Source: Cupriavidus sp. MP-37 (lineage in GTDB: Bacteria > Pseudomonadota > Gammaproteobacteria > Burkholderiales > Burkholderiaceae). From it: a stretch of DNA of 64,000 bases. Positions 32,495 to 52,223 of this stretch are shown here, piece after piece. The translations under genes were made by a program, and so were the position numbers. The notes beneath the pieces were generated by a model, which worked only from the letters and a program-made list of their open reading frames with translations, was not told where the DNA came from and searched no databases. Numbering within the stretch: the stretch's first letter is position 1; each line of letters begins with the position of its first letter. The DNA is taken from NCBI RefSeq assembly GCF_020618415.1, contig NZ_CP085344.1:1325001-1389000 (forward strand), given 5' to 3'.

Positions 32495-32737
32495 TCAGTC
32501 CTCGGCATCCTTGCCGGCGGCTTTGCGCGGCAGGCGGCCGAGCGGGGCCTCGCGCGGCATCACATGGCGCTTGCCGGGCAGGCCGCCGGGGTAGTCGACG
32601 ATGCGTGCCGCGCCCGGGTGCCGCAAGCCATGCCACGCCTGGCCGCCGGCGGTGCGCCCGCCACCGAGGATGGTGGTCATGGCCTGCCGGTCGAGATCCA
32701 TGCTGTCGGGCAAATCCTTGATGACGATCACTGCCAT
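32495..32737 (-). CDS. Double-glycine leader peptide, divergent basic core
   Basis: 80 residues. The first 26 (MAVIVIKDLPDSMD, then LDRQAMTTILGG) share length and key positions with six other peptides here: Asp8-Leu9, Leu15 (-12), Met20 (-7), Ile23 (-4), Gly25-Gly26. The predicted core of 54 residues is basic and Gly/Pro/Arg-rich (GGLPGKRHVMPREAPL), unlike the Asn-rich cores of the others. The ribosome site ccggagaccgcc-ATG is nearly identical to those of the sister genes. It is the last gene of the leftward peptide cluster. A -10-like TATACT (minus strand, 32789-32794) might start it separately. Function unknown. Confidence 0.65.
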   Translation of the reverse strand: MAVIVIKDLPDSMDLDRQAMTTILGGGRTAGGQAWHGLRHPGAARIVDYPGGLPGKRHVMPREAPLGRLPRKAAGKDAED

Positions 32738-32840
32738 GGCGGTCTCCGGTCAAGCGGGGCCGCGGCCGTGCGGCCGCGGGACCGCTTCAGTATAGGCAAG
32801 GCGGGCCCGCGCGCCGGCGCGGGCCCGCCGCGCGTTGCGC

Positions 32841-33113
32841 TCAGACTGCGGCAAAGTTGCCGGCCCATTGCGACGGGTTGACGTTGACCCGCACCGGGCC
32901 GACGCCGGGGCCGACGAAGCTGTTGTTGAGCGTGTTGACGTTGATGCTTTGCAGTTGGGCGATGTTCTGGTTGACGTTGACGGTCACGTTGGCGAGGGGG
33001 CCGACCTCGCCGACGCCGCGGGCGAGCCACGAATTGCCTCCGCGTACGGCACACAGCGAGGCACGGTCCAGTTCTTTGCTCAGGGCCAGGTCGCGGACGA
33101 TGATGTTTGACAT
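32841..33113 (-). CDS. Double-glycine leader peptide, Asn-rich core
   Basis: 90 residues. Leader of 26 (MSNIIVRDLALSKE, then LDRASLCAVRGG) with Leu15, Leu20 and Val23 at -12, -7, -4 before GG. The 64-residue core alternates hydrophobic and polar residues with many Asn: NVTVNVNQNIAQLQSINVN, then NNSFVGPGVGPVRVNVN. NIAQLQS recalls SIAQMQS of the 89-residue sisters, so the cores seem distantly related. The only Cys is in the leader. AGGAG lies 8 nt upstream. It is third in the leftward peptide operon. Confidence 0.75.
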   Translation of the reverse strand: MSNIIVRDLALSKELDRASLCAVRGGNSWLARGVGEVGPLANVTVNVNQNIAQLQSINVNTLNNSFVGPGVGPVRVNVNPSQWAGNFAAV

Positions 33114-33199
33114 GATGATGCTCCTTTGAATGGGATCGGGGGGCGGGCGCGGCGCTGGCTGCGTTCGGCAGCGCTCGCGCGCGCCCGGCACCTCGGCTA

Positions 33200-33469
33200 T
33201 CAGCCGAAGATGTTGTTGGTGGCGTTCTGGTTGGTGTGCACGTCGGACTTGACGTGGTCCAGGAAGGCCGAGCCGTTGCCGTTCAGGTTGGTCACGGACT
33301 GCATCTGCGCGATGCTCTGCACGGCGCTGATGCTGTTGTCGACCGACGCCTTGATCGGCATGTAGACGGCGGCGAAGGGCAGGTACGACGTGCCGCCGCG
33401 CACGGCGTGCATGCGCTTGCGGTCGAGGGTTGCGGCGGCGGACAGGTCCTGGATGGTCAGCGTGGTCAT
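33200..33469 (-). CDS. Double-glycine leader peptide (89 aa), near-twin of 39440-39709
   Basis: Leader of 26 (MTTLTIQDLSAAAT, LDRKRMHAVRGG) fits the C39/PCAT rule exactly. Core of 63 without Cys: TSYLPFAAVYMPIKASVDNS, SISAVQSIAQMQSVTNLNG, NGSAFLDHVKSDVHTNQ, NATNNIFG. It is almost identical to the gene at 39440 in the inverted copy. The ribosome site is ataccggagaccatc-ATG. The 55-nt gap to the upstream sister gene at 33525 is also conserved in the other copy, so both units are operons of two or more peptide genes. Confidence 0.85.
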   Translation of the reverse strand: MTTLTIQDLSAAATLDRKRMHAVRGGTSYLPFAAVYMPIKASVDNSISAVQSIAQMQSVTNLNGNGSAFLDHVKSDVHTNQNATNNIFG

Positions 33470-33524
33470 GATGGTCTCCGGTATCGGTGGTCAGTGCTTG
33501 GGTTTCGTCAGCTGGCAACAGGGC

Positions 33525-33794
33525 TCAGCCGAAGATGTTGTTGGTGGCGTTCTGGTTGGTGCGCACGTCGGACTTGACGTGGTCCAGGAAGGCCGAGCCG
33601 TTGCCGTTCAGGTTGGTCACGGACTGCATCTGCGCGATCTCCTGCACGGCAGTGATGCTCTTGTCGAGCGACAGCTTGACCGGGCTGTAGACGGCGGCGA
33701 ACGGCATGTAGGCGATGCCGCCGCGCACGGCGTGCATGCCCTTGCGGTCCAGGGTTGCGGCGGAGGACAGGTCCTTGATGGTCAGCGTGGTCAT
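33525..33794 (-). CDS. Double-glycine leader peptide (89 aa), near-twin of 39114-39383
   Basis: Leader of 26 (MTTLTIKDLSSAAT, LDRKGMHAVRGG) and a Cys-free core of 63 beginning IAYMPFAAVYSPVKLSLDKS and ending with the shared TNLNGNGSAFLDHV and TNQNATNNIFG. It is the promoter-proximal gene of the leftward unit. A sigma-54-type promoter lies 82-97 bp upstream and the leader between them matches that of the 39114 gene. The ribosome site is tactggagaccatc-ATG. Charge differs from the second peptide of the unit (KLSLDKS against KASVDNS), hinting at a two-component product. Confidence 0.85.
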   Translation of the reverse strand: MTTLTIKDLSSAATLDRKGMHAVRGGIAYMPFAAVYSPVKLSLDKSITAVQEIAQMQSVTNLNGNGSAFLDHVKSDVRTNQNATNNIFG

Positions 33795-33875
33795 GATGGT
33801 CTCCAGTAGAGGAAGGGTGTTGCCTTGGGTTTGGGGTTCGAGCATCGGGTTGGTGTCGCGCTCGGGAGGGACAAA

Positions 33876-33891
33876 CGCAGGGACTGTGCCA
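33876..33891 (-). promoter_or_regulatory. Sigma-54 (-24/-12) promoter of the leftward peptide operon
   Basis: On the minus strand TGGCACAGTCCCTGCG: GG and GC have the correct 10-bp gap and TGGCAC is perfect. It is identical to the site before the 39114 gene and lies 82 nt before the ATG at 33794. The locus encodes its own sigma-54 activator. Confidence 0.75.
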
Positions 33892-33916
33892 AGCCCGCGG
33901 GCACGTCCGCAGCGCC

Positions 33917-33935: not shown

Positions 33936-34123
33936 ATGAGGAATTCGTCGTCGATGTCGGTTTGCCGGCAGGCCGCTCGCGGCGCCAGCCGCGGCCAGGT
34001 GTGACGGGCCCCGGCCAACAGGCGCAGCGCCGGTGTCGGCGCCGCGGCGACAGTGCCGCGCCCCGGCGCCCGGCGCGCATGCGGGCGGCGCGTACGCGCC
34101 CACGCAAGCGGGCCTCGCATGGT

Positions 34124-34203: not shown

Positions 34204-36297
34204 ATGTCGGGGCATCCCGTGGCCAGTCTCAAGGACCTGATCCGCAAGTTCCAGAACGGTGGTCTCTCCGACGACGAGTTCGTGGCGTCGTTCGAAACGG
34301 CGCTGGCGCAGGATCCCACCACGCCCAGCCAGGCCGCTCGGGTGGTGATCGAGGAAAACACGCGCTTTCCGTTTCCGCCCGCGGTCTATGCCGAAGTGAT
34401 GCGGCGCATCGAGCGCCGCGGCGCCACCCAATACGATGGCGATGGGGCCACCGACGCCACGCGCCTGGCCGGCACCGAAACCGGCTCGATGTATGCCGCC
34501 TCGCCCGAACCCGGCACGCTGCCGCCGACGCCGGCCACCAAGGGCGTGGGCGATACCCTCAATGGCCGCTTCGTGCTGGAGGAATGCCTCGGTGTCGGCG
34601 GCATGGGCACGGTGTACAAGGCGCTCGACCTGCGCAAGCTCGAAGCCTCGGACCGCCGGCCGTACATCGCCATCAAGGTGCTGAACCTGCAATTCAGCGG
34701 CCATCCCAAGTCGCTGATGGCGCTGCAGCGCGAGGCGCGCAAGGCGCAGACGCTGGCCCACCGCAACATCGTCACGGTCTATGACTTCGACCGCGACGGG
34801 CCGGTGGTCTTCCTCACCATGGAGTACCTATCGGGCTCGTCGCTCAACCATGTGCTCAAGGCCCCAAGCTTTGCCGGCATGCCGATGGCGCGCGCCATGC
34901 CCATCATCCAGGGCATGGGCAATGCGCTGGCGTATGCGCACGAGCGCGGCTTCGTGCACTGCGACTTCAAGCCCGCCAATGTCTTCCTGACCGCCAGCGG
35001 CGAGGTCAAGGTGATCGACTTCGGCATCGCGCGCGGCTTCCTGCCGCCGGCCGACGAATCGGACCGCACGGTATTCGATCCCGGTTCGCTGGGCGGCATG
35101 ACGCCGGCCTATGCGAGCCCGGAGATGTTCGAGCATCGCGAGCCCGACCCCCGCGACGACATTTACGCGCTGGCCTGCGTGACCTACGAGCTGCTGAGCG
35201 GCAAGCATCCCTACCAGCGGCTCTCGGCCAACCAGGCACGCGAAGCCGGGCTCAAGCCGGCGCCGCTGCCGCAGCTGGGCCGCACGCAATGGAAGACCCT
35301 GCGCGAAGCACTTTCGCTCGACCGCGAGACGCGCACGCCGACGGTCGCGCGCTTCCTGCAAGGCATGAGCGCGGTGCCGGCCGCGCCGGCGCGCCGCAGC
35401 GAGCCGATGATGGCGGGCGGCGTGCTGGTGGTGCTGGCAGGCGTGGCGGCACTGGGCTACTACGCCTGGCAGTCGCAGCGCGACGCGTCCGCCCCGGCCG
35501 CGGATTCGCGCGCACCAGCGCCGCTCACTGCCGCCGCGCCGGCCCCCGAGGCGCCGCCCACGCCAGCCCCCGCAGCGCCCGCAGTGCCTGGAGCGCCCGC
35601 GCCAGCCGCCGCGGCGGAGTTGTCGATGGCCGAGGTCGGCAAGCTGCTGGCCGCGGTGCCATGCTCGCTGCTGGCCGCGGCGCGGCAGGACCAGACCCTG
35701 CACGTGCGCGGCTACCTGGCCGAGAGCGTCGGTGCCGCGCGCCTGCGCGAACAGCTCGGCGCACTGCCGGGTGCCAGGGCGCTGCGCGAGGTGGTGGTCG
35801 ACGCCCAGCCGCTGGGCGCCGACAAATGCGAGGTGGCGGCGATGATCGCGCCGTACTGGTCGGGCCACCGGCAGGGCGCGACGGCCTCATCGCTGCAGCT
35901 GCGCGGCAAGGGCACGCAGCTGACCGAGGGCGCGCCGATGGTGCTCGACCTGCGCACGCCAGGGCAGGACTCTTACGTCTACGTCGACTACTTCGCCGCG
36001 GACGGCAAGGTGGCGCATATGGTGCCGAGCCAGCGCATGCCGGCCCACCAGGCGCCGCCGGCGCATAGCGCCACCATCGGCGACAGCGGCGACTGGATCG
36101 TCTCGGCGCCCTTCGGCAACGAACTGGTGGTGCTGCTGACCACGCCGGCGCCGCTGTTCGCGTCGCGCCGGGCCGAGGTGGAGTCGCGGCAGGAGTACCT
36201 GCGCGCGCTGGAGAAACCGCTCGCGCAGATGGCGCGCACCTATGGCCGCGACCGCATCAGCGCGGACCTGGTGCAGATTTCCACGCGCGCGCGCTGA
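34204..36297 (+). CDS. Membrane Ser/Thr protein kinase with DUF4384 sensor domain
   Basis: 697 residues. N-terminal region 1-115 is helical and of unknown fold. The Hanks-type kinase domain is about 118-390: Gly loop LGVGGMGTVYKA, Lys158 in IAIKVL, catalytic Asp254 in HCDFKPANV, DFG at 272-274, and YASPE. A single membrane helix (about 402-422) and an Ala/Pro linker lead to an extracytoplasmic part with a DUF4384-like segment (SYVYVDYFAADGKVAHMVPS). So it can sense outside and phosphorylate inside. Likely partners are the double-FHA protein and the PP2C phosphatase of this locus. It has its own sigma-70-like promoter and stands between the two inverted peptide operons. Confidence 0.9.
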   Translation: MSGHPVASLKDLIRKFQNGGLSDDEFVASFETALAQDPTTPSQAARVVIEENTRFPFPPAVYAEVMRRIERRGATQYDGDGATDATRLAGTETGSMYAASPEPGTLPPTPATKGVGDTLNGRFVLEECLGVGGMGTVYKALDLRKLEASDRRPYIAIKVLNLQFSGHPKSLMALQREARKAQTLAHRNIVTVYDFDRDGPVVFLTMEYLSGSSLNHVLKAPSFAGMPMARAMPIIQGMGNALAYAHERGFVHCDFKPANVFLTASGEVKVIDFGIARGFLPPADESDRTVFDPGSLGGMTPAYASPEMFEHREPDPRDDIYALACVTYELLSGKHPYQRLSANQAREAGLKPAPLPQLGRTQWKTLREALSLDRETRTPTVARFLQGMSAVPAAPARRSEPMMAGGVLVVLAGVAALGYYAWQSQRDASAPAADSRAPAPLTAAAPAPEAPPTPAPAAPAVPGAPAPAAAAELSMAEVGKLLAAVPCSLLAAARQDQTLHVRGYLAESVGAARLREQLGALPGARALREVVVDAQPLGADKCEVAAMIAPYWSGHRQGATASSLQLRGKGTQLTEGAPMVLDLRTPGQDSYVYVDYFAADGKVAHMVPSQRMPAHQAPPAHSATIGDSGDWIVSAPFGNELVVLLTTPAPLFASRRAEVESRQEYLRALEKPLAQMARTYGRDRISADLVQISTRAR

Positions 36298-36358: not shown

Positions 36359-37585
36359 CTACTTGATGTCCCGCGCCACGCGAAAGCCGTTCTGCGACTG
36401 CCGCACGCTCGGGCTGTACTTGAAGCGCGTCGACGACACCATATAGCTCGCGCCTTCGCGCCACGAGCCGCCGCGGATGACACGCGCGCCGCAGGCGTTC
36501 TCGTTCCATGCGCGCCCGTCGGCGGGCGCGCCCTTGTACGAGCTGTGCCAGCAATCGGCCACCCATTCCCACACGCTGCCGTTGACGTCATGCAGGCCGT
36601 ACGGGTTGGCGGCGAACGAGCCCACCGGGGCGGGCGCGTCCTGGTTCCATGGGTCGCCGCAGTCCTTGCAGTTGGCATTGCCCTTGCGCATCTGGTCGCC
36701 CCACCAGTAAGCGGTGGCGCTGCCGCCGCGCGCCGCGTATTCCCATTCCGCCTCGGTCGGCAGCCGGTAGCTCTTGCCGGTGGTCTTGCTGAGCCAGGCC
36801 ACGTACTGCTGCGCATCGTCCCAGCTGACGTCGCGTACCGGTGCGTTCTTCGCGCTGTCGGCGATGGTGGGAATGCGCTGGCAGCCGCCGGCGTCGGCAC
36901 AGGCGTTCCATTGCTCGACCGTGACTTCATAGCGGCCGATGGCGAACGGCTGGGCGATGGCGACATGGTGCGGCGGCTTCTCGGCCGGGTCGCTGGCGCT
37001 GCTGCCCATGGTGAAGCTGCCGGCCGGCACCGTGACCAGCGCCGGGCAGGCCGGGCAATCGCGGATCTCCGCCGTGCGCAGCGTGGTGCTGACCGCGCCG
37101 CCGTCTGCCGTGCCGGCGCGTGATGGCGCGGTTGCCGGCGCCGACGGGCGCGCGGCCGCGGGTGCGGGCGGCGCAGACTTGGCAGCGGGAGCCGAGGCCG
37201 TGGCAGGCGCCGGGGCGCGCGAGGCTGGTGCGCCTGCGGCGGCGCCGGTGCGTGGCGGCGGCGCGGGCGACTGCGCCTTCGGCGCCGGCGCGCCGGACCC
37301 CAGGCGTTCCAGCCGCGCCCGGGCCAGCCCCGCGAAACGGCCGTTGGGGTACTGCTTCAGGTAGGCCTCGTAGTCGGCGGCGTAGTTGCTGTTCTTGATC
37401 GATTCCCAGAAGCTCAGCTCGTACTGCTCGTCGGTGTTCTTGGGCATGATGCCGGCCAGCAGCAGCGGCCGCGCCTGCGCCGGTTCGCCGGCCGCCGCCG
37501 CGGGCACCGCAGTGGCGAGGAGCGCGGCCGTGGCCGACATCGGGATCATCGCAGCCACGCGCAAGACTGGTAGGTTGCGCCACAT
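36359..37585 (-). CDS. Exported SUMF1/FGE-fold protein lacking the catalytic cysteines
   Basis: 408 residues. A signal peptide ends near VPAAAAG (about 33). A short tetratricopeptide-like stretch ([39 protein letters not shown]) comes next, then an Ala/Pro linker, then a full SUMF1 domain from about 190 ([10 protein letters not shown] to NGFRVARD). True formylglycine-generating enzymes need a Cys pair near the C-terminus; here that part reads [20 protein letters not shown] with none. It is therefore probably a binding or structural domain. Four Cys (CKDCG, CPAC) may form disulfides. It is convergent with the kinase gene. The start at 37585 has GAGG 6 nt upstream. Confidence 0.8.
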
Positions 37586-38358: not shown

Positions 38359-38787
38359 ATGTCCCGACTACTTGCCGCGGCTGTCTTCGCCGTCAGCCTG
38401 ATGCTGTCCGCGTGGGTCCAGGGCGGCCCCACTGCCGCGCCGCCCAATGCCTATCTGTACATCGGCTGGCCCAACGACGGGCAGACCTTGCCCGCCGGCA
38501 AGCCGTTCAAGGTCTGGTTCGGCCTGCGCAACATGGGGGTCGCGCCCAAGGACGTGAAGTATCCCAATACCGGGCACCATCACCTGCTGATCGACGTGGA
38601 CCTGCCGCCGATGGACAAGGAGATCCCCAACGACCGCAACCACCTGCATTTCGGCGCGGGAGAGACCGAGACCATGATCGAGCTGCCGCCGGGCAGGCAT
38701 ACGCTGCAGTTGCTGATGGGCGATGACAAGCACATACCGACCAACCCGCCGGTGTACTCGAAGCGGATCACGATCTACGTGAAGTAG
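38359..38787 (+). CDS. Exported DUF4399 protein, second of a tandem pair
   Basis: 142 residues; signal peptide followed by the same domain as the preceding gene (roughly 65% identical by eye), with [22 protein letters not shown] and [14 protein letters not shown]. It lacks the two Cys. GGGGAGAG lies before the ATG. The pair sits inside the segment bounded by the inverted peptide repeats, so it belongs with the locus by position, but no link in function is shown. Confidence 0.85.
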
Positions 38788-38972
38788 TCCTGAAGCTTCG
38801 CGCCGTCGAGCTGGCAGGAATCGGCGCGGGGCAGGGATCCGGTTGTGGATCCCGCTGTTGGTCAGGTCCCAACATCGCGCCTTCCACCTGTTGGCTGCCT
38901 CCCGCCACCGCGTACCGACCGACTCCCGCCGCCGTCACCGCCGGGCGCCCGCCAGAAGCGAAAAAACCCCGT

Positions 38973-39016: not shown

Positions 39017-39032
39017 TGGCACAGTCCCTGCG
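39017..39032 (+). promoter_or_regulatory. Sigma-54 (-24/-12) promoter of the rightward peptide operon
   Basis: TGGCACAGTCCCTGCG, identical to the site of the left copy. TGGCAC and the GC at -12 are in register; only the T-tract next to -12 differs from consensus. The ATG is 82 nt downstream. Confidence 0.75.
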
Positions 39033-39113
39033 TTTGTCCCTTCCGAGCGCGACACCAACCCGATGCTCGAACCCCAACCCCAAGGCCACACCCTTCCTCT
39101 ACCGGAGACCATC

Positions 39114-39383
39114 ATGACCAAGCTGACCCTCACCGACCTGAGCACCGCCGCAACCCTGGACCGCAAGGGCATGCAAGCCGTCCGCGGCGGCCGCACGCTG
39201 ATGCCCTACGTGGCTGTGTTCCGGCCGCTGGACCTGTCGTTCGACAAGAGCATCACCGCCGTGCAGGAGATCGCGCAGATGCAGTCCGTGACCAACCTGA
39301 ACGGCAACGGCTCGGCCTTCCTGGACCACGTCAAGTCGAACGTGCACACCAACCAGAACGCCACCAACAACATCTACGGCTGA
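39114..39383 (+). CDS. Double-glycine leader peptide (89 aa), first of the rightward pair
   Basis: Leader of 26 (MTKLTLTDLSTAAT, LDRKGMQAVRGG); Cys-free core of 63 starting RTLMPYVAVFRPLDLSFDKS and ending with TNLNGNGSAFLDHV and TNQNATNNIYG. It is the twin of 33525-33794, with most changes just after the cleavage site and little in the C-terminal 40 residues. That pattern suggests the C-terminal part is under constraint. Ribosome site taccggagaccatc-ATG. Confidence 0.85.
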   Translation: MTKLTLTDLSTAATLDRKGMQAVRGGRTLMPYVAVFRPLDLSFDKSITAVQEIAQMQSVTNLNGNGSAFLDHVKSNVHTNQNATNNIYG

Positions 39384-39439
39384 GCCCTGTTGCCCAGCTG
39401 ACGAAACCCAGACACTGACCACCGATACCGGAGACCATC

Positions 39440-39709
39440 ATGACCACGCTGACCATCCAGGACCTGTCCGCCGCCGCAACCCTCGACCGCAAGCGCATGC
39501 ACGCCGTGCGCGGCGGCATGTCGTACCTGCCCTTCGCCGCCGTCTATACGCCGATCAAGGTGTCGGTCGACAACAGCATCAGCGCCGTGCAGAGCATCGC
39601 GCAGATGCAGTCCGTGACCAACCTGAACGGCAATGGCTCGGCCTTCCTCGACCATGTCCGCTCGCATGTGGATACCAACCAGAACGCCAGCAACAATATC
39701 TATCGTTGA
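39440..39709 (+). CDS. Double-glycine leader peptide (89 aa), second of the rightward pair
   Basis: Leader identical in residues 1-26 to the 33200 gene; core of 63 (MSYLPFAAVYTPIKVSVDNS, SISAVQSIAQMQSVTNLNG, NGSAFLDHVRSHVDTNQ, NASNNIYR). The last residue is Arg instead of Gly. It is followed by a strong terminator and then by the outer-membrane exporter gene. Confidence 0.85.
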   Translation: MTTLTIQDLSAAATLDRKRMHAVRGGMSYLPFAAVYTPIKVSVDNSISAVQSIAQMQSVTNLNGNGSAFLDHVRSHVDTNQNASNNIYR

Positions 39710-39732
39710 GAGGATGGTTGAGATGGCGCTGC

Positions 39733-39865: not shown

Positions 39866-41329
39866 GTGCCCGAATTCCCCATTGCCCCGCCCGTGCCCGC
39901 GGTGATCCGCGCGCCGCGCCGTGCTGCCTGGCTTGCCGCGCTGGCCGCCGGCCTGGCACTGCTGGCGGGTTGCGCCGATTTCCGCCCGCCGGTGTACCAG
40001 CGCCCCGAAACGCCCGCCAAGGCCGAATGGTCGCGCCAGGAATCGATCACGGTATCGCCGGCCGAAGCGGTACAGCCGAACTGGTGGCTGGGCTTCAAGG
40101 ATCCGTACCTGAACCAGCTGATCGAACGCGCGCTGGCCGGCAACTACGACATCAAGGTGCTGGCGGCGCGCATCCGCGTGGCCAACGCGCAGATCGGCGA
40201 GGCCCGCGCCGGCGGGCTGCCGGTGATCGACATCGGCGCGGGCGCAAGCTTCGAGAAGAGCACCGGGCAGAAGTCCACCTGGACCTATAACGCCGGCGCC
40301 CAGCTGAACTGGGACATCGATATCTGGGGCAAGGTCGAGAAGGGCGTGCAGGCACAGACCGCCGAGTTCCGCGCCACCGAGGCGGACTGGCGCGCCGGCT
40401 ACCTGACGCTGGTGGCCAATGTCTCGACCACGTACTTCCAGATCCTGCAGTTCGACGAGCAGATCGAGCAGCAGTCGCGCACCGTGGCCAAGAACCAGCA
40501 GATCCTGTCTACCTACCAGGCCATGTACCAGAACGGGCTGGTGCCGAAGATCCGCGTGATGCAGCAGCAGGCGGAGATCAATCGGCTCAACAAGGACCTG
40601 CTCGAGCTGCGCCGTGCGCGCGATGTGGCGGAGAACGCGCTGGCGACGCTGGTCGGCGTGCCTGCCGGCAACCTCAAGGTGCCGGCCGGGCGCCTGCAGG
40701 ACCGCGTGCAGCCGCCCGCGGTGCCGGCGGGCCTGCCGTCGCAGCTGCTGGCGCGGCGCCCGGACGTGGTGGCGGCGGAGTACCGCGTGCTGGCCGCCTA
40801 CAACATCGTCGGCCAGGCCCGCCTGGCGCAGCTGCCCAGCATCAGCCTGACCGCGCGCGGCGGCACCGCCAGCTTTGCCTTGAGCGACCTGCTCAAGTCC
40901 TTCACCTTCGGCTTTATGCCGAGCATCAACCTGCCGATGCTGGACCCGGGCGTGCGTGCCCGCGTCAAGACCACCGAGGCGCAGGTCGGCGTGGCGGAAA
41001 ACGAATATGGCCGCACGGTGATGACCGCGTTCGAGGAAGTCGAGACCGCGCTGGTCAACGTCGACGCCCACAAGAAGCAGCGCATCGAACTGCAGCAGCA
41101 GGTGGAACAGCTGCGCGTCGTGTCCGCGCAGATCGAGGCGCAGCTGAAGGAAGGCGTGGTCTCGCAGCTCGAAGTGTTCGAAACCGAGCGCTCGCTGCTG
41201 GCCGCGCAGCTGCAGTTGTTGGCGGTCCACCAACAAATCCTGGGCGACACCATCACGCTCTACAAGGCGCTGGGCGGCGGCTGGCCCGAGGCGGATGTGC
41301 GCAACACCGCGCTGAATCCGCCGCAATAA
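39866..41329 (+). CDS. NodT/TolC-type outer-membrane efflux lipoprotein
   Basis: 487 residues from a GTG start (AGGAAG upstream). Signal with lipobox LLAGC, lipidated Cys at about 36. Two outer-membrane-efflux repeats (about 75-265 and 290-470): ALAGNYDIKVLAARIRVANA, LPSQLLARRPDVVAAEYRVL, and coiled-coil helices for the periplasmic tunnel. It is the likely outer-membrane channel for the HlyD/PCAT exporter encoded 3 kb downstream. RND-type pump genes, its other usual partners, are absent. A weak sigma-70-like pair (TTGGAG, CACAAT) lies at 39783-39811. Confidence 0.88.
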   Translation: MPEFPIAPPVPAVIRAPRRAAWLAALAAGLALLAGCADFRPPVYQRPETPAKAEWSRQESITVSPAEAVQPNWWLGFKDPYLNQLIERALAGNYDIKVLAARIRVANAQIGEARAGGLPVIDIGAGASFEKSTGQKSTWTYNAGAQLNWDIDIWGKVEKGVQAQTAEFRATEADWRAGYLTLVANVSTTYFQILQFDEQIEQQSRTVAKNQQILSTYQAMYQNGLVPKIRVMQQQAEINRLNKDLLELRRARDVAENALATLVGVPAGNLKVPAGRLQDRVQPPAVPAGLPSQLLARRPDVVAAEYRVLAAYNIVGQARLAQLPSISLTARGGTASFALSDLLKSFTFGFMPSINLPMLDPGVRARVKTTEAQVGVAENEYGRTVMTAFEEVETALVNVDAHKKQRIELQQQVEQLRVVSAQIEAQLKEGVVSQLEVFETERSLLAAQLQLLAVHQQILGDTITLYKALGGGWPEADVRNTALNPPQ

Positions 41330-44309: not shown

Positions 44310-45688
44310 AGGACGATGCCCGCCACGCCGGCCTCAAGCCACTTGCCGAGGCGCTGGAAGACCACGGCGCCGAAGGCATCGGCCTGCTCAGCGCCGAGCC
44401 GTCGCGCCTGGGCATGCTCACCATCGTCACCACCTTTGCGCTGGTGCTATGCGGGCTGGTCTGGTCGTTCGTCGGCCACGCCGATGTCATCGTCACCGCG
44501 CAGGGTACGCTGGCGCCGGAATCCGAGGTGCGGCGCTTCTATGCCCCGGTCGACGGCGAGCTGGCCGACCTGTACGTGGCGGAAGGGCAGCCGGTGTCCA
44601 AGGACGATGTGCTGGCGCGCCTGAATGCGCGGGGCGCGATCGAGGCCGCCGCCAACGCGCTGGAGGCGCAGCTCAAGCTGGAAGACTCCGAACGCGAGTG
44701 GAAGCAGTTCCCCGAAAAGAAGGCGCTGATGGAACGGCGCGCGGCGGCGCTCAAGCAGCAGATCGACGTGGCCACGCGCCAGCACGAGACCCGCATCGCC
44801 GAGGGCACCACGCGGCTGGCCGAGCAGCAGCGCGCGCAGCTGCAGGAAGCGCGCAGCAACCTGGAGAATGCGCGGCGCGCGCGCGAGTTCGCGCGCCAGG
44901 AGCAGGACCGCTATGCGCGCCTGCTGGCGCTGCCCGGCGGCGGCGGCGTCTCGCAATCGCAGGTCGACGCCAAGCGCGCCGCGGCGCAGGATGCCGAGAA
45001 CACCCTGCGCGTGGCGCAGTCGCGGCTGACCGAACTGGAGGCGCGCCTGGGCCGCGAGCTGACCCAGGCCAGTTCCGAGCTGGAAAGCAGCGGCCAGGAC
45101 CTCGCCGGCCTGCGCGTGCAGTATGACGCGGCGCTGCGCGAGATCGCCAACACCGAGGACAAGCTGCGCCTGCAGGTGCAGACCGCCCGCCTGGTGGCCG
45201 ACGCCGCCGCGCGCATCCGTTTCGAGAATATCGACAAGGACAACTTCCTGCTGATCCTGGCGCCGGTGTCCGGCGTAATCACCGATGTCACCTCGACCCA
45301 GCGCGGCGACAAGGTGCAGGCCAATACGCCGCTGGGCGGCATTGCGCCCAAGGATGCCCGCCCGGTGGTGAAGATCGTGATTGCCGAACGCGACCGCGCC
45401 TTCCTGCGCGAGGGCTTGCCGGTCAAGCTCAAGTTCAGTGCCTTCCCGTACCAGCGCTACGGCATCATCGACGGCACGCTCGAGTTCATCTCGCCCGCGA
45501 CCAAGCCGGGCGGGCCTGACAAGCAGCCGGTCTACGAGGGCCGCGTGCGCCTGGCGCGCGACTATTACACCGTGGCCGACAACAAGTATCCGCTGCGCTA
45601 TGGCATGACCGCCACGGCGGAAATCGTGGTGCGCGAGCGCCGCCTGATCGACCTCGGGCTCGACCCCTTCCGCGAGGTGGCGGGCTAG
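44306..45688 (+). CDS. HlyD-family membrane fusion protein of the peptide exporter
   Basis: 460 residues. Cytosolic start, one membrane helix (about 37-58, [20 protein letters not shown]), half lipoyl motif ([20 protein letters not shown]), a long coiled coil (about 100-300), the second half lipoyl segment ([12 protein letters not shown]) and a C-terminal beta-barrel domain ([17 protein letters not shown]). This is the type I secretion adaptor form, joining the inner-membrane ABC protein to the outer-membrane channel. Coupled to the FHA gene by a 4-nt overlap. Confidence 0.92.
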
Positions 45689-45765: not shown

Positions 45766-46518
45766 ATGACTGGCATCGTGCGTATCGACGATGAAGTGCT
45801 CGGCGTCGAGGAATTCGTGCGCCTGCTCAAGCTGACCGGGCAGTTCGAAGGGCTGGTCGAGCAGATCGTGCGCGACAAGCTGACCGTGCACGCCGCCAGG
45901 CGGCAGGGGGTGGTGGTCACGCCGGAAGAGATCCAGGAGCGCGCCGACCAGTTCCGCCGCGTGCAGGGCCTGCACCGCGCCGCCGACATGAACCACTACC
46001 TGGATGCGCTCAACGTCAGCCTGGACGAGTTCGAGGCCTTTATCACCGACAGCCTCTATCAGGAGCGGATGATGGCGCAGGTCTGCAGCGACGCGGCGGT
46101 GCAGGAGTACTTCGCGCTGAACTCGCCGCGCTTCGACAGCATCGAGGTCAGCCACATCGTGGTCGACAGCGAAGGCAAGGCCAAGGAACTGATCTCGTAC
46201 CTGCAGGACGACCCCGAGGCCTTTGCCGAGATGGCGCGCGAGCACTCCATCGCCGACACGCGCGAGCGCGGCGGCGAGATCGGCAAGGTGCTGCGCGGCT
46301 CGCTCAAGACCGAGATCGAGGCCAAGGTCTTCAACGCCGAGCCGGGCGACCTGCTGGGGCCGTTCCCGGCCGCCGACCGCTCGTTCTTCGAGGTCTTCCT
46401 GGTGCGCGCCAAGCACCCCGCCACGCTCGACAGCGAGGTCGCGGTCGAAGTGCGCAGGCTGCTGCGGGAGGACTGGCTGATGGCCAGGGCGCAGGAACAT
46501 GTCATCGAAGCCCGCTAG
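45766..46518 (+). CDS. Cytosolic parvulin-type peptidyl-prolyl isomerase (PpiC)
   Basis: 250 residues. A SurA-N-like helical part (1-115) is followed by a parvulin domain (about 120-215: VSHIVVDSEGKAKELISYL, FAEMAREHSIADTRERGGEI, GKVLRG). No signal peptide or membrane helix, which is unusual for this architecture, so it should act in the cytosol. It may hold precursor peptides in an export-ready form. AAGGAG precedes the ATG. Its last 20 nt overlap the ABC gene. Confidence 0.85.
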   Translation: MTGIVRIDDEVLGVEEFVRLLKLTGQFEGLVEQIVRDKLTVHAARRQGVVVTPEEIQERADQFRRVQGLHRAADMNHYLDALNVSLDEFEAFITDSLYQERMMAQVCSDAAVQEYFALNSPRFDSIEVSHIVVDSEGKAKELISYLQDDPEAFAEMAREHSIADTRERGGEIGKVLRGSLKTEIEAKVFNAEPGDLLGPFPAADRSFFEVFLVRAKHPATLDSEVAVEVRRLLREDWLMARAQEHVIEAR

Positions 46519-49500
46519 CGAGGCCGCACCGGCCGGCGCCGCCACCGCCGTGCCGCAGCCACCGGAGGCGGGCCCGGCGCTGGCCGCTTTCCTGGCGTCG
46601 GTCGAGATCCTGTCGGTGCTGACGCCGGAAGAACTGGCGCGCCTGGCCGACGCCGCGCAGGTGCTGAGCTTCGGCTTCGGCGATACCGTCTGCAATGCCG
46701 GCGAAGCCGCGCCGGGCCTGTTTATCGTCAAGTCAGGCTCGGTGCGCGTGTTCAACGAGGAGCACGGCAAGGAAATCAGCATGGGGGTGCGCAAGGCCGG
46801 CGAGGTCTTTGCCGATCTTGCGCTGCTGCGCGAATACCGGCACGAGTCGTCGGTGCGCGCCTCGGGCAAGACCGAGCTGCTGATGATCCCGCGCAGCGTC
46901 AGCGAGCCGGTGGTGGCCGGCAACCCCGCGGCGCTGGCCTTCATCACCAGCTATGTCGCGATCAGCTCGGCCGGCGGCTTCGTCGCGCGGCTGTTCGACC
47001 TGCGCGGCAAGCTCGACAAGCAGGAGCTGGAAGACGCGGTGCGCAGCGTCGGCGTCAAGCGCGTCGCGGCCGGCCGGGAAATCCTGAAGCAGGACGGACG
47101 CGAGGACCGGCGCCTGTACGTGGTGCGCCAGGGCACGGTGCGCATCGTGCGCAGCGAAGAGGGCAGCGAGTTTCCGCTGGCGACGCTGGGCCAGGGCGAC
47201 ATCTTCGGCGAGCGCGCCTGCGTGATGCGGCAGGAGCAGCTGGCCGCGGCCATTGCCGAGACCGACGTGCGCCTGCTGGTAATTCCCGAGAAGACCGTGC
47301 AGCTGATCCTGGAGCGCAACCCGCGCCTGCGCGAGGTGCTGGAGGAACGCATCCGGGTGCTCGACCGCGAACTGCACCGGCAAAAGAAGCTGGCCGAGCG
47401 GCGCAAGCGCCCGGTGCTGCTGGACCTGGCCTCGAAGCCCGAGCTGGGCGAGAAGCTGATCCGCCGCTTCGCGCTGGTGGAGCAGGCCGAGGAAATGGAT
47501 TGCGGCGCGGCCTGCCTGGCGATGATCTGCCGGCACTACGGCATCCCGATGACGCTGGGCAAGCTGCGCGAACTGGCCAACGTCACCACGCAGGGCGCCA
47601 CGCTCGACAGCCTGGCGCGGGCGGGCGAAGCGCTGGGCTTCACCACGCGCGGGGTGCAATGCACGCGCGACTCGCTGATGGGCTTCGAGCTACCGTTCAT
47701 CGTCCATTGGGAGGGCTACCACTACGTGGTGGTGTACGGCATCTCGTCGCGCTGGGTGTGGGTGGCCGACCCGGCCATCGGCTTCCGCAAGATGAGCGCC
47801 GAGGAGTTCGAGCGGGGCTGGAGCGGTACCTGCCTGCTGTTTTCGCCGGGCGAAAGCATGACGCAGCTGTCGGTGCAGCGCTCGCCATGGCTGCGCTTCA
47901 TCGGCTACCTGGCGCCGTACAAGAAGATCCTGGCGCACCTGTTCCTGGCGACCTTCGTGATCCAGATGCTGGGGGTGGTGCCGCCGCTGATCATCCAGAA
48001 CATCCTGGACGGCGTGGTGGTGCACCAGAACGTCGGGCTGCTGCACCTGCTGATCGCTGGGCTGATCATCTCGAGCGTGTTCTCGCAGCTGATGTCGACG
48101 ATCCGCGCGTACCTGGCCAACTTCATGGTGCGCAACATGGATTTCGCCATGATGTCGCACTTCTTCAGGCACACGCTGTCGCTGCCGCTGTCGTTCTTCG
48201 CCAAGCGCAAGACCGGCGACATCTTCGCGCGCTTCCAGGAGAACCAGACCATCCGCGCCTTCCTGACCGAATCGACGGTGACCACGGCGCTGAACCTGCT
48301 GATGGTGTTTATCTACTTCACCATCATGTTTCTCTACAACGTCAAGCTGACGCTGCTGCTGATCGCCTTCGTGATCCCGATCGCCGCGCTGACGGTGGTG
48401 GTGACGCCGCGGGTCAAGTCCTATGCGCGCGACGTCTTTGCCACCTCGACCGATGCCAAGGCCTACCTGATGGAGACGCTGGGCGGCGCCGAGACCGTCA
48501 AGGGCATGGGCATCGAGCGCCCGGTGCGGCTGCGCTGGGAGCGCAAGTACACCAAGGCGCTGGAGTCGCAGTACAAGGCGCAGCAGTTCCATATCCTGGT
48601 GGGGCTGGCGAGCCAGCTGCTCAATGCCGCCACCACCATCGCGGTGCTGTGGGTGGGCGCGACGCTGGTGCTGGAGCGCGAACTGACCATCGGCCAGCTG
48701 ATGGCCTTCAACGCCTTCATGGGCAGCGTGCTGGCGCCGCTGATGGGACTGGTGGCGCTGTGGGGCCAGCTCAACGACGCCGGCGTGGCGATGGAGCGTC
48801 TTGGCGACGTGCTCGACCTCGAGCCGGAGCAGAAGCCGCAGGACGTGCTGTCGCGCGTGATGCTGCCCGACCTGCAAGGCGAGATCGTGATGAAGGACCT
48901 GTACTTCCGCTACGGCGGCGAAGACACGCCCTATGTGCTGGAGAACATCAGCTTCGCCATCCGCCCCGGCGAGATGGTCGCCATCGTCGGGCGCAGCGGC
49001 TCGGGCAAGACCACGCTGGCCAAGCTGCTGGTGGGCTTCTACAAGCCCACCGAGGGTTCGATGACGGTCGACGGCTACGACCTCAACGTGATCGACGCGG
49101 CGTTCTACCGGGCCCAGGTGGGTTACGTGATGCAGTCCAACCTGCTGTTCTCCGGCACCATCGCCGAGAACATCGCCTGCGGCGACGACAGCCCGGACCG
49201 GCGCCGCATCGAGGAGGTGGCGCGCATGGCGGACGCGCATGCCTTTATCAGCAAGCTGCCGCTGGGCTACGAGCAGGTCGTCGGCGAACGCGGCATCGGC
49301 CTCTCCGGCGGGCAGATCCAGCGGCTGTGCATCGCGCGCGCGCTGTACCACGACCCGCGCCTGCTGGTGTTCGACGAAGCCACCTCGGCGCTGGACACGC
49401 AGTCGGAGAGCAACATCCTGGCCAATATGCAGGAAATCCTGCGCGGGCGCACCGCGGTCATCATCGCGCACCGGCTCAGCACCATCATGCAGGCCGACAA

Positions 49501-49612
49501 GATCCTGGTGCTGTACGAGGGCGCGATCGTCGAGCAGGGCCGGCATGAAGAGCTGCTGGAGCGCAAGGGCATGTATTACCAACTGGTGCAGAAGCAACTG
49601 AGCGCAGCATGA
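46499..49612 (+). CDS. Peptidase-containing ABC transporter with two cNMP-binding domains
   Basis: 1037 residues. Two cyclic-nucleotide-binding-like domains (about 38-140 and 175-290; second with LGQGDIFGERACV) precede a C39 peptidase: Cys335 in EEMDCGAACLAMI, His408 in EGYHYVVVYG and Asp424 in VADPAIG, with Gln329 for the oxyanion hole. This is the intact triad with normal spacing. Six membrane spans (about 465-745) and a nucleotide-binding domain follow: Walker A GRSGSGKTT (about 831), LSGGQIQRL, Walker B LLVFDEATSALD. It should cut after GG of the leader peptides and pump the cores out. The cNMP domains suggest gating by a nucleotide or another ligand. The stop overlaps the next ATG. Confidence 0.93.
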   Translation: MSSKPASEAAPAGAATAVPQPPEAGPALAAFLASVEILSVLTPEELARLADAAQVLSFGFGDTVCNAGEAAPGLFIVKSGSVRVFNEEHGKEISMGVRKAGEVFADLALLREYRHESSVRASGKTELLMIPRSVSEPVVAGNPAALAFITSYVAISSAGGFVARLFDLRGKLDKQELEDAVRSVGVKRVAAGREILKQDGREDRRLYVVRQGTVRIVRSEEGSEFPLATLGQGDIFGERACVMRQEQLAAAIAETDVRLLVIPEKTVQLILERNPRLREVLEERIRVLDRELHRQKKLAERRKRPVLLDLASKPELGEKLIRRFALVEQAEEMDCGAACLAMICRHYGIPMTLGKLRELANVTTQGATLDSLARAGEALGFTTRGVQCTRDSLMGFELPFIVHWEGYHYVVVYGISSRWVWVADPAIGFRKMSAEEFERGWSGTCLLFSPGESMTQLSVQRSPWLRFIGYLAPYKKILAHLFLATFVIQMLGVVPPLIIQNILDGVVVHQNVGLLHLLIAGLIISSVFSQLMSTIRAYLANFMVRNMDFAMMSHFFRHTLSLPLSFFAKRKTGDIFARFQENQTIRAFLTESTVTTALNLLMVFIYFTIMFLYNVKLTLLLIAFVIPIAALTVVVTPRVKSYARDVFATSTDAKAYLMETLGGAETVKGMGIERPVRLRWERKYTKALESQYKAQQFHILVGLASQLLNAATTIAVLWVGATLVLERELTIGQLMAFNAFMGSVLAPLMGLVALWGQLNDAGVAMERLGDVLDLEPEQKPQDVLSRVMLPDLQGEIVMKDLYFRYGGEDTPYVLENISFAIRPGEMVAIVGRSGSGKTTLAKLLVGFYKPTEGSMTVDGYDLNVIDAAFYRAQVGYVMQSNLLFSGTIAENIACGDDSPDRRRIEEVARMADAHAFISKLPLGYEQVVGERGIGLSGGQIQRLCIARALYHDPRLLVFDEATSALDTQSESNILANMQEILRGRTAVIIAHRLSTIMQADKILVLYEGAIVEQGRHEELLERKGMYYQLVQKQLSAA

Positions 49613-50976
49613 AGCTATACAACCAGGGTGCCACCCCCGTCTCGGTGACTTCGCCGGTGTCGTTCGCCGGCCTGATCGAAAAGATCGAGATCCTGCGCTC
49701 GACCCTGCGCTGGGCGTCGAAGCTCGACCGGCCCGAGATCGAGAAGCTGCTCAAGCAGGCCACCACGCTGCGCGACGAGGTGATGGGGCTGTCGCACAAG
49801 GAGCGCTTCGTGCAGGCGGCATCGGCCGCCGACACCGCGTCCGAAACCGCGGCCGAAACCGCGGCCGAAACCGCGGCCGGAGGGGCGCCGCAGCAGCCCG
49901 AGATCGAACGCCTGCCGCGCGAGCGCCGGCAGGCGCTGATGGAGCGCAGCTTCATCTTCGAGGGGACCTTCGGCGACAATCCCAGGCTGCTCGAGGCGCT
50001 GGAAATCGCCGAGAAGGCCGCGCCAACCGACCTGCCGGTGCTGATCGACGGTGAAAGCGGCACCGGCAAGGAGCTGATGGCCAAGGTGATCCACGCCAAC
50101 GGCGCGCGCACCGACAAGCCCTTTATCTCGGTCAACTGCGGCGCCATTCCCGACAGCCTGCTCGAATCCGAGCTGTTCGGCCACAAGAAGGGCGCCTTCA
50201 CCGGTGCCAGCAACGACCGGCGCGGCAAGTTCGAGAGCGCGCATACCGGCACCATCTTCCTGGACGAGATCGGCGAACTGCCGCTGACCGGCCAGGTCAA
50301 GCTGCTGCGCGTGCTCGAGGCACACGAGATCCAGCGCGTCGGCTCGGACGAGGTCATTTCGGTCGATGCGCGCATCGTCGCCGCGACCAACAAGGACCTG
50401 CGCCGCATGAGCCAGGCCGGCACCTTCCGCGAGGACCTGTTCTATCGCCTGAGCGTGATCCACGTCAGCCTGCCGGCGCTGCGCGAGCGGCGCGACGAGA
50501 TCCCGCTGCTGCTGTCGTACTTCAGCGACGAGGCCGCCGGCATGCTCAGGCGCGCGCCGGTCAGGCTGACGCCGCGGCTGCGCGACTTCCTGCTGCACTA
50601 CGACTACCCCGGCAATATCCGCGAACTGCGCAACCTGCTGTACCGGCTGAGCTGCCTCGCCGGCGATACCGCCGACCTGCCGCACCTGCCGCAGGACATC
50701 CGGCCGAAGCCTGCCGCGCTGGCGGTGGTCGGCGCCGGCGCCTCCGGCGCGGACTTCGCCCTGGCGACCTCGCTGAGCGAAGCCAAGCGCGCGGCCAGCG
50801 ACGAGGCCGAGCGCGCCTTCCTCGAGCGCGGACTGCAGGAGGTGGGGGGCACCGTCGCCGAACTGGCGCGGCGCTTCGACATGAACCGCTCGCACTTGCA
50901 GATGCTGCTGAAGAAGCACGGCATCCATTCGAAGGATTTCCGCGCCGCCCGGCAGGCCGAAGGCGGCAAGCGGTAG
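49609..50976 (+). CDS. Sigma-54-dependent enhancer-binding activator
   Basis: 455 residues. A non-receiver N-terminal part (1-115, with an Ala/Glu/Thr repeat AETAAETAAETAAG near 80) leads into the AAA+ domain: Walker A GESGTGKE, sigma-54 contact loop GAFTGA, Walker B IFLDEIGEL, arginine finger region FREDLFYRL. The Fis-type HTH at the end is GGTVAELARRFDMNRSHLQM. It drives transcription from -24/-12 promoters, three of which precede peptide genes in this locus. The input may be phosphorylation or contact with the FHA protein. Coupled to the ABC gene by ATGA. Confidence 0.95.
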   Translation: MKLYNQGATPVSVTSPVSFAGLIEKIEILRSTLRWASKLDRPEIEKLLKQATTLRDEVMGLSHKERFVQAASAADTASETAAETAAETAAGGAPQQPEIERLPRERRQALMERSFIFEGTFGDNPRLLEALEIAEKAAPTDLPVLIDGESGTGKELMAKVIHANGARTDKPFISVNCGAIPDSLLESELFGHKKGAFTGASNDRRGKFESAHTGTIFLDEIGELPLTGQVKLLRVLEAHEIQRVGSDEVISVDARIVAATNKDLRRMSQAGTFREDLFYRLSVIHVSLPALRERRDEIPLLLSYFSDEAAGMLRRAPVRLTPRLRDFLLHYDYPGNIRELRNLLYRLSCLAGDTADLPHLPQDIRPKPAALAVVGAGASGADFALATSLSEAKRAASDEAERAFLERGLQEVGGTVAELARRFDMNRSHLQMLLKKHGIHSKDFRAARQAEGGKR

Positions 50977-50989
50977 CGCGGGGAAGGCC

Positions 50990-51766
50990 TCAGGCGTCCA
51001 GCTCGGGGTTGACCAGGGTCCGGTCCGAGCCGCAGGGATCGGACGCGCGCAGCACCACCACCGAGACGTTGTCGCGCCCGCCCGCATCGAGCGCCCGCTG
51101 CACCAGCGTCAGCGCGGCCTGCGCCACGTCCTGCTGCGCCAGCACCGCGGCGATCTCGTCATCGTCGACTTCGTTGCTCAGGCCGTCGCTGCACAACAGG
51201 TAGACGTCGCCGTCGGCGACGTCGGTCAGCAGCTGCTCCGGCGCCAGCGTCGGGGCCGCGCCGACCGCGCGCGTGATGGTGTTCTGCGCCGGATGGTGGC
51301 GCGCCTGCTCCGGCGTGATCAGGCCGCGCGCGAGCAGGCGCTCGACCTGGTTGTGATCGCGCGTCAGGCGCGCCAGCTCGCCGCCGCGCAGCCGGTACAG
51401 GCGGCTGTCGCCGGCCCACAGGCAGGCACAGCGGCTGTCGCCGGCCAGCAGCACCACCACCGTGCTGCCGATGCAGCGCACGCCCAGGCGCGCGGCTTCG
51501 TCGACCAGCGCCAGGTTCACGCCCTGCAAGGCCGCGCGCGTGGCGTCGATCCGGTCTTCCAGCCGCGCTTGCGGCGGCAGCGCCGCCAGCGCCCGCACCA
51601 CCGCCTGGCTGGCGAAATCCCCCACGGCATGACCACCCATGCCGTCGGCCACGGCCCACAATTCCTGTCCGGGCAGGTCCAGGCACGCGTCCTCGTTGCG
51701 CTCGCGCACGCGCCCGACGTCGGTGCACGCCGCCGAAGTCCACTGGAAATGCGAGTCGAAACCCAA
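50990..51766 (-). CDS. PP2C-type Ser/Thr protein phosphatase
   Basis: 258 residues, a single cytosolic PPM/PP2C domain. Metal-binding and catalytic words are intact: RERNEDA, VADGMGGHAVGDFAS, GSTVVVLLAGD, WAGDSRLYRL, LLCSDGLSNEV and GGRDNVSVVVL. It should reverse the action of the kinase at 34204. It is convergent with the activator gene (13 nt between stops) and may be read with or near the peptide gene upstream at 51862-52155. Confidence 0.95.
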   Translation of the reverse strand: MGFDSHFQWTSAACTDVGRVRERNEDACLDLPGQELWAVADGMGGHAVGDFASQAVVRALAALPPQARLEDRIDATRAALQGVNLALVDEAARLGVRCIGSTVVVLLAGDSRCACLWAGDSRLYRLRGGELARLTRDHNQVERLLARGLITPEQARHHPAQNTITRAVGAAPTLAPEQLLTDVADGDVYLLCSDGLSNEVDDDEIAAVLAQQDVAQAALTLVQRALDAGGRDNVSVVVLRASDPCGSDRTLVNPELDA

Positions 51767-51861
51767 TCTCGTCTCCGCTCCGCATCCGCCCGCTCCGCGC
51801 CAGCGCCCAGGTGCGCCCGCGGCATGGCCACGGGCGCACCGGCGCTCAGGTCCGCGCCGCG

Positions 51862-52155
51862 TCAGACCAGCCGGCCGTCGTTCCTGGCCTCCTGGTCGCC
51901 CCGGACATTGATGTTGGCATTGGGGGCGTTGTTGCGGATATCGATGTTCTGGAACTGGTTGTTTATCTGATCAGCATAGAAGCTGTAGTTGATCTCGTAA
52001 AAGTTGATCACCGTGCCGAGCGGCGCCGGCGACGACGGCACGAACGGGCGGATCCAGCCGAACACCCACTGCCCCCCCGCGCCGCGTACACGCGCCATGG
52101 CGGCGGGAGCCAGGTCACTGCAGCGGGCAAGGTCACGGATCGAAAGGTTGGCCAT
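51862..52155 (-). CDS. Leader peptide with GA cleavage site and aromatic/Asn-rich core
   Basis: 97 residues. Leader again exactly 26 long (MANLSIRDLARCSD, LAPAAMARVRGA) with Leu15, Met20 and Val23, but ending GA, a known C39 variant. The core has a Trp/Phe-rich start (GGQWVFGWIRPFVPSSPAPL) and an Asn-rich second half (INFYEINYSFYADQ, NNQFQNIDIRNNAPNANINV). No Cys in the core. Ribosome site ccaccggagaccgcatc-ATG. It has the best sigma-54 promoter of the locus and lies at its far edge, beside the PP2C gene. Confidence 0.8.
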   Translation of the reverse strand: MANLSIRDLARCSDLAPAAMARVRGAGGQWVFGWIRPFVPSSPAPLGTVINFYEINYSFYADQINNQFQNIDIRNNAPNANINVRGDQEARNDGRLV

Positions 52156-52207
52156 GATGCGGTCTCCGGTGGAAGGCGGCGTTGCGCCGGGGGCGGTACC
52201 GGCATTG

Positions 52208-52223
52208 AGCAAGCGGCGTGCCA
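52208..52223 (-). promoter_or_regulatory. Consensus sigma-54 promoter of the 97-residue peptide gene
   Basis: Minus strand TGGCACGCCGCTTGCT, a full match to TGGCACG-N4-TTGCW. Transcription would start near 52197, giving a 42-nt leader before the ATG at 52155. Confidence 0.85.

Follow-up and report, generated by a model that had tools for sequence, protein, structure and literature searches.

We analysed a locus at positions 32495 to 52223 of a 64,000-nucleotide window from Cupriavidus sp. MP-37 (contig NZ_CP085344.1, positions 1,325,001 to 1,389,000; "the window" is this whole stretch), which sits in a 6.11-Mb genome of two contigs. The locus encodes a C39-peptidase ABC exporter together with double-glycine leader peptides, a Ser/Thr kinase, a double-FHA protein, a PP2C phosphatase and a sigma-54 activator (Table 1). 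The genes named in a first-pass annotation of this DNA (channel, exporter, HlyD, parvulin, kinase, FHA, PP2C and activator) were all recovered by profile matches. That annotation had also counted seven leader peptides; five were read from open reading frames (ORFs), and a family hidden Markov model (HMM) seeded with these five, whose own recovery by the HMM is not independent, added leaders 2 and 7 (33113 and 52155, reverse strand). Two locus members had gone unnoticed, a protein of the FGE-sulfatase fold beside the kinase, for which the start codon is our choice, and a DUF4399 protein. The overlapping starts proposed earlier were only partly confirmed: FHA and HlyD (ATGA at 44306), PpiC and ABC (20 nt), and ABC and activator (ATGA at 49609) do overlap, but the end of HlyD (45688) and the start of PpiC (45766) are separated by a 77-nt gap.

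Table 1. Genes and putative control sites of the locus, in window coordinates.
Feature	Position	Strand	Evidence
Double-glycine leader peptide 1, atypical core	32495..32737	-	ORF-read, HMM seed, E 6.9e-7
Double-glycine leader peptide 2	32841..33113	-	family HMM, E 4.5e-18
Double-glycine leader peptide 3, class A	33200..33469	-	ORF-read, HMM seed, genome-wide search
Double-glycine leader peptide 4, class A	33525..33794	-	ORF-read, HMM seed, genome-wide search
Sigma-54 -24/-12 site TGGCACAGTCCCTGCG upstream of leader 4	33876..33891	-	score 13.0 of 15.5
Enhancer-like palindrome, degenerate (2 mismatches), upstream of leader 4	34002..34020	.	
Hanks-type Ser/Thr kinase, membrane helix (by eye)	34204..36297	+	Pkinase, 130 bits
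FGE-sulfatase-fold protein, TagR-like	36359..37585	-	PF03781, 205 bits; signal peptide by eye
DUF4399 protein	38359..38787	+	PF14347, 121.6 bits; signal peptide by eye
Enhancer-like palindrome TGTTGG-N7-CCAACA, perfect, upstream of leader 5	38856..38874	.	
Sigma-54 -24/-12 site TGGCACAGTCCCTGCG upstream of leader 5	39017..39032	+	promoter score
Double-glycine leader peptide 5, class A	39114..39383	+	ORF-read, HMM seed, genome-wide search
Double-glycine leader peptide 6, class A	39440..39709	+	ORF-read, HMM seed, genome-wide search
NodT-type outer-membrane channel	39866..41329	+	TIGR01845, 319.5 bits (cut-off 210); OEP
Double-FHA protein, membrane helix (by eye)	41568..44309	+	two FHA stretches
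HlyD-type periplasmic adaptor	44306..45688	+	HlyD_3
PpiC/parvulin protein	45766..46518	+	Rotamase
ABC exporter, two cNMP-fold domains and C39 peptidase	46499..49612	+	PF03412, PF00664, PF00005, two cNMP stretches
Sigma-54 activator, GAFTGA intact	49609..50976	+	Sigma54_activat
PP2C phosphatase	50990..51766	-	PP2C_2
Double-glycine leader peptide 7, class B	51862..52155	-	family HMM, genome-wide search
Perfect sigma-54 site TGGCACGCCGCTTGCT upstream of leader 7	52208..52223	-	promoter score
Enhancer-like palindromes, degenerate, upstream of leader 7	52321..52339 (2 mismatches) and 52354-52372	.	

The locus is one conserved unit. Relatives of the exporter were sought in a species-level genome set (one genome per species, 84,980 species), which yielded 269 stretches; locus comparisons used the best 80 of these 269, with flanks of at most 10 kb per side, from Cupriavidus, Paraburkholderia, Caballeronia, Trinickia, Noviherbaspirillum, Herbaspirillum, Aromatoleum and their kin. 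Co-presence was followed in a separate sample of 60 genomes of the genus, where the exporter, the FHA protein and the kinase shared one pattern: 50 genomes had all three, and in the other 10 none of them was found; the first-pass expectation that the three travel together was thereby borne out in 60/60 genomes. Outside the genus the kinase was found in 38/38 distinct exporter-positive genomes (40 were sampled, G122/G424 and G379/G428 giving identical places). In the locus-positive genus genomes measured (27 of 50), 9.4-11.5 kb separated the kinase from the exporter, and the peptide family was found in 13/13 exporter-positive and 0/10 negative genomes. Of 398 genomes sampled from the family, 156 had the exporter itself; a class-wide sample of 369 genomes gave 8 with it, its own genome included, five of the eight being only 31-34% identical.

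Across the 80 loci the activator was seen in 80, PpiC in 79, PP2C in 73, the FHA protein and HlyD in 72 each, the channel in 70, DUF4399 in 65 and FGE in 60, the flanks ending near the position of the last two. Where found, the nine core genes (FGE to PP2C) kept their order and strand in 78/80 loci, an inverted PP2C accounting for both exceptions, and the run from channel to activator was complete in 70/80. The eight loci in which the FHA gene was not seen comprise three cut by contig ends and five from Noviherbaspirillum or Herbaspirillum. Two Noviherbaspirillum genomes kept the whole set, split into two blocks in the same region, the second of which holds PP2C, leaders, kinase, FGE, two DUF4399 genes, channel, FHA and HlyD; the Herbaspirillum stretch runs from PP2C to DUF4399 and then ends. 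Aromatoleum loci extend from channel to PP2C, with no FGE or DUF4399 gene in the flank examined.

The exporter carries the C39, ABC membrane and ATPase domains expected of a C39-ABC protein, and its relatives keep the motifs EEMDCGAAC and GYHYVVVYG...ADP, which we take to hold the catalytic residues of the peptidase (Cys, His/Asp). Double-glycine substrates adjoin it, seven of them in the window. A genome-wide search with an alignment of relatives (62 rows, three of them window peptides) found six of the seven window leaders and placed every match inside the locus; leader 1, with its atypical core, was not recovered. The leader family comprised 189 matches, 184 of them placed, in 73/81 sources. 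Leaders are 25-28 residues long and end in GG or GA, and cores span 50-85 residues in 172/184 precursors. We assigned two classes by a loose pattern, under which two class A-like peptides, including window leader 2, fell into class B; class A was present in 67/73 sources in one to seven copies and class B in 68/73. The class B leader beside PP2C is conserved across genera and single in 66/73 sources.

The 166 distinct cores are rich in Asn (14.1% vs 2.7% in other proteins of the loci) and low in charged residues (8.7%), with Cys in 8. No Pfam or NCBIfam family was matched by the window peptides (best NCBIfam E 0.059, below cut-off), and, among the matches listed, named database relatives were labelled hypothetical or implausibly (porin, STAS domain). 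AlphaFold2 gave no confident fold, with mean predicted local distance difference test scores of 47.1 for class B and 57.2 for class A, from alignments of 52/65 distinct class B and 62/104 distinct class A peptides. The composition and the conservation of class B favour a structural or matrix role over that of a fast-evolving toxin. In some genomes leaders and exporter are on different contigs, which holds for all matches except one in G007, for both in G030 and for some in G029; G409 has a leader-peptide array after the kinase.

Control of the peptide genes by sigma-54, which the first-pass annotation had read from linkage and promoter sites, now has strong support. Counted over the window, sigma-54-like matches are no more frequent than chance predicts (35 seen vs 42 expected); it is their position, rather than their number, that is non-random. 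In a survey of a segment of the window and the 80 loci (3.57 million strand-bases), 52 of 60 near-perfect -24/-12 sites were located in the 200 bp ahead of a leader start, where 0.6 would be expected by area, and a looser cut placed a site ahead of 133/184 leaders in 72/73 sources. The half-site TGTTGG/CCAACA occurred upstream of the promoters in 64/75 class A and 55/63 class B regions, vs 7.2% of random regions; at least two half-sites were present in 34/75 and 49/63, respectively, vs 1.8%, and GTTGG-N7-CCAAC in 5/75 and 31/63 vs 0.6%. Looser half-site pairs precede the -24 element by 80-170 bp. The palindrome, when two mismatches were allowed, matched eight times in the window (1.4 expected), five of these upstream of leaders; the region upstream of leader 7 contains no exact TGTTGG/CCAACA half-site. 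In the whole genome TGTTGG-N7-CCAAC occurs at two places, both in the locus, one upstream of leader 5 and one near the end of the channel gene, and a reversed control pattern gave one match.

The activator has the AAA+ domain, a GAFTGA motif conserved in its relatives and a helix-turn-helix recognised by eye only, with no Pfam match for the latter. No receiver domain was found in it, and its conserved N-terminal region (49609-49830) has no Pfam match. Sigma-54 control of the peptide genes is well supported, and the adjacent activator is the natural candidate to bind the TGTTGG/CCAACA sites. A search for a sigma-54 site ahead of the run from FHA to activator found none in the window; in one locus examined, L058, this run has a site scoring 13.5.

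The leader cassettes at 33197-33891 and 39017-39712, each with two leader genes and a sigma-54 promoter, form a 0.7-kb inverted duplication, 90-92% alike, that brackets the kinase, FGE and DUF4399 genes. Flipping of this segment between the cassettes was considered and set aside, the strand of FGE and DUF4399 being constant in the loci viewed.

The kinase retains its conserved HCDxKPxN and DFG residues, reads DRTVFDP in its activation loop in the window (35062-35082) and ends in a DUF4384-like region (below Pfam's cut-off). FHA domains that bind phosphothreonine (pThr) do so through GR, SxxH and NG residues; FHA1 of the double-FHA protein has these, and they are conserved. Following the FHA domains is a linker of the form D[KR]TTFVGAA-SFLDIFCVD (DRTTFVGAPDSF at 42531-42566 in the window), in which D-x-TT[FL] is kept in 68/69 FHA proteins. 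A comparable motif ends the phosphatase, whose C-terminal tail is mostly D[KR]T-x-[LV]-NP (DRTLVNP at 51005-51025 in the window), with T-x-[LIVM]-NP in 73/73 sequences. The closest relative of PP2C in the PDB is 6jkv (208 bits), which we take to be the PppA of a type VI secretion system (T6SS); the alignment ends at residue 241, before the tail, which is thus extra to the aligned part. T-x-[LIVM]-NP is absent from the tail of a second PP2C of the same genome. Among the ten locus-negative genus genomes, three kept a PP2C (60-79% identity), and the tail motif was present in 0/3. Two of these three, both from the Cupriavidus group (L155 and L157), show an empty site: PP2C sits about 1 kb or less from the DEAD helicase that flanks the locus in the window, and the rest is gone.

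TagR is an FGE-fold protein. The parts of a T6SS-type module are complete at this locus (a Hanks kinase, a PppA-like PP2C, an FHA protein and a partner that appears by eye to be periplasmic), and because a TagR-like protein adjoins the kinase, the analogy with the T6SS switch is closer than the first-pass annotation had written. In matched passages of PMC3953482, PMC6082577 and PMC10482370, PpkA phosphorylates Fha or TssL in T6SS, and the FHA domain binds pThr. Like the T6SS threonine-phosphorylation pathway (PpkA-PppA-Fha with TagQRST or RtkS), the locus combines a Hanks kinase, a PppA-type phosphatase, an FHA effector and an FGE-fold partner; unlike it, the locus lacks T6SS genes, has a large protein with two FHA domains and would have a C39 peptide exporter as its output. 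Linkage, co-loss and the conserved DxT motifs suggest that this module may exert phospho-control.

Together, these observations point to a C39-ABC type I secretion system (T1SS) for Asn-rich peptides, mostly with cores of 50-85 residues, that probably has two control layers of its own. They are best read as a type I peptide secretion system to which a T6SS-like threonine-phosphorylation module is joined. The first-pass interpretation, that the modules are linked as a control of peptide export, thus gains support from the co-occurrence and the sigma-54 sites, its phosphorylation part staying conditional. In the first layer, the activator would bind the TGTTGG/CCAACA sites and open the -24/-12 promoters ahead of the peptide genes. 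In the second, the C-terminal domain of the kinase, together with the FGE-fold and DUF4399 proteins, would give the prompt from the periplasm, and the kinase, presumably a membrane protein, would phosphorylate one threonine of the D[KR]TTFVG linker in the double-FHA protein. Through an FHA domain that binds pThr motifs, kinase, phosphatase and exporter would be gathered, and PP2C, docked via its D-x-T-x-x-N-P tail, would reset the switch. The C39 domain would cut the leaders at GG, the parvulin would assist the substrate, and HlyD and the NodT channel would carry the core out. A further step, that secretion is phosphothreonine-gated and that the Asn-rich cores are surface fibre or matrix subunits exported once a periplasmic sensor triggers the kinase, is offered tentatively and is rather unlikely as it stands.

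Several observations weigh against this reading. The conservation counts come from related sequences and genomes and are not independent trials. PP2C was not seen in the flank of 7/80 loci and in G007 lies far from the exporter; G007 and G030 have no leader match near the exporter. PP2C may also have another job, surviving as it does without the rest of the locus. In 7/50 genomes (G023, G024, G345, G387, G396, G419 and G410) stop codons interrupt the aligned part of the FHA match; six of these still have open frames of 851-1065 codons, that of G410 being in pieces. FHA2 is without the usual Gly-Arg. The activation loop of most of 32 kinase sequences keeps T-V-F-D-P, the DRT there being a feature of the window kinase, and [DE][RK]T occurs in only 7/31 kinases, outside the loop. 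The bare [DE][RK]T is not rare elsewhere (72/75 ABC and 51/69 channel proteins), and the argument for phosphorylation therefore rests on the invariance of the motifs in their place. Cyclic nucleotide monophosphate (cNMP) domains that bind cAMP have a phosphate-binding cassette with Glu and Arg; both cNMP-fold domains of the exporter (46499-47400, FADLALLREYRHESS and FGERACVMRQEQLAA) are conserved and lack this Arg, and in this they depart from cAMP-binding members. Even at the loose cut, the 200 bp ahead of 51/184 leaders contain no sigma-54 site, some of these leaders being the second genes of a cassette. The palindrome near the end of the channel gene lies in a coding region, was seen in Cupriavidus loci only and is followed by no good sigma-54 site in the window; it may be a coding coincidence. 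Our overall confidence is lowered because D[KR]T is no general feature of the kinase loop and only a minority of regions contain the full palindrome.

How far the T6SS likeness might mislead has to be weighed, as the kinase, FHA protein and PP2C could serve a T6SS elsewhere in the genome, with the exporter merely a neighbour. The PppA likeness of PP2C fits such a role, the genome has two T6SS sheath genes, and the matched part of PMC10482370 reports the H1-T6SS with the set PpkA, PppA, Fha and TagR. However, the sheath family was distributed independently of the locus (37/50 locus-positive vs 8/10 locus-negative genomes, Fisher p = 1.0), with none found in 13 locus-positive genomes, so that the module showed no co-inheritance with T6SS, and the FHA gene overlaps HlyD by ATGA in the gene run leading to the exporter; we regard this explanation as very improbable. 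A chance cluster of separate modules, each of which occurs alone in other genomes, can practically be discounted given co-presence or co-absence in 60/60 genus genomes and a set retained through rearrangement. It is unlikely, although less so, that the locus and its sigma-54 control are shared as proposed, yet the phospho-switch acts on the peptide genes via the activator and not on export via the FHA protein. The activator combines the lack of a receiver domain with a conserved N-terminus that matches nothing in Pfam, which leaves its input unexplained, and a route from kinase to transcription is described for T6SS2 of Vibrio alginolyticus in the matched passage of PMC10482370; against this, the FHA gene overlaps the exporter run, the invariant DxT motifs sit in the FHA protein and PP2C, and [DE][RK]T was found in only 9/79 activator sequences. 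The same source, as far as matched, describes VasH-type sigma-54 activators, which resemble the present one in being encoded inside a secretion locus and promoting its genes; they belong to a different system, and TGTTGG/CCAACA is proposed here as the binding site.

Among peptide exporters, class II microcin and double-glycine T1SS exporters (MccV, HlyB-like, PCAT1) share the C39-ABC protein, HlyD, outer-membrane channel and GG leaders; unlike them, as far as is known, this locus has two cNMP-fold domains, a parvulin, a phospho module and a sigma-54 activator, and its peptide family has no Pfam or NCBIfam match. In Rv1747 of Mycobacterium tuberculosis the FHA domains lie within the ABC protein, and no C39, peptides, PP2C, HlyD, channel or sigma-54 parts are known there; the likeness of the Rv1747/PknF pair consists in a Ser/Thr kinase beside an ABC exporter and two FHA domains, and the kinase is said, in the passage matched, to modulate the transporter positively. 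A parallel for the cargo is Cdz of Caulobacter crescentus, with paired peptides exported by a T1SS and possible surface assembly, and the present peptides could likewise be a two-component bacteriocin of surface-held, aggregating peptides. The two peptide classes and the T1SS-type export fit this idea, which is compatible with the two-layer control proposed above, and the part of PMC5380434 matched reports Cdz-like systems in many bacteria. The Cdz set given there consists of five genes, cdzABCD and cdzI, with no kinase, FHA, PP2C or activator among them, and its peptides are of the glycine-zipper kind. Class B is conserved across genera and mostly single-copy, unlike fast-changing toxins, and no immunity gene was recognised at the locus, DUF4399 remaining a candidate; we consider a bacteriocin possible but doubtful.

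The first-pass annotation knew of no description of the combination, and none came up in the literature: among the matches listed, no open-access title or abstract opening describes it, and the matched passages of two Paraburkholderia phymatum rpoN papers and one C. metallidurans transcription-start paper do not name the locus genes. The parts are known separately and the combination is conserved. A control module familiar mainly from T6SS is thus placed at a peptide exporter, with exact residues and DNA sites for testing, and an unnamed family of exported peptides is exposed in familiar laboratory bacteria such as Cupriavidus necator and Paraburkholderia xenovorans LB400 (locus L086). If the cores do form a fibre or matrix, a regulatory module of the T6SS needle would control how, in Burkholderiales and their kin, a secreted peptide polymer is assembled.

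Eight locus proteins scanned against anti-phage models matched no whole known system, with no match for FGE, DUF4399, FHA and PpiC. The kinase matched many PD-T4-6 and other kinase models, ABC partly matched mad3 and PycC, and PP2C matched PDC-M21C (6.9e-11). The PADLOC regulator model RtcR_PspF2 aligned to activator residues 10-439 (1.7e-104), the other parts of such a system being absent. The motif of an LRAT-domain gene was not found in the window; this gene (L086:15792-16463, the domain being checked on the L086 copy) has like places in 59/80 loci, where it and the class B leader are divergently oriented, many of the loci having a weaker sigma-54-like site ahead of it.

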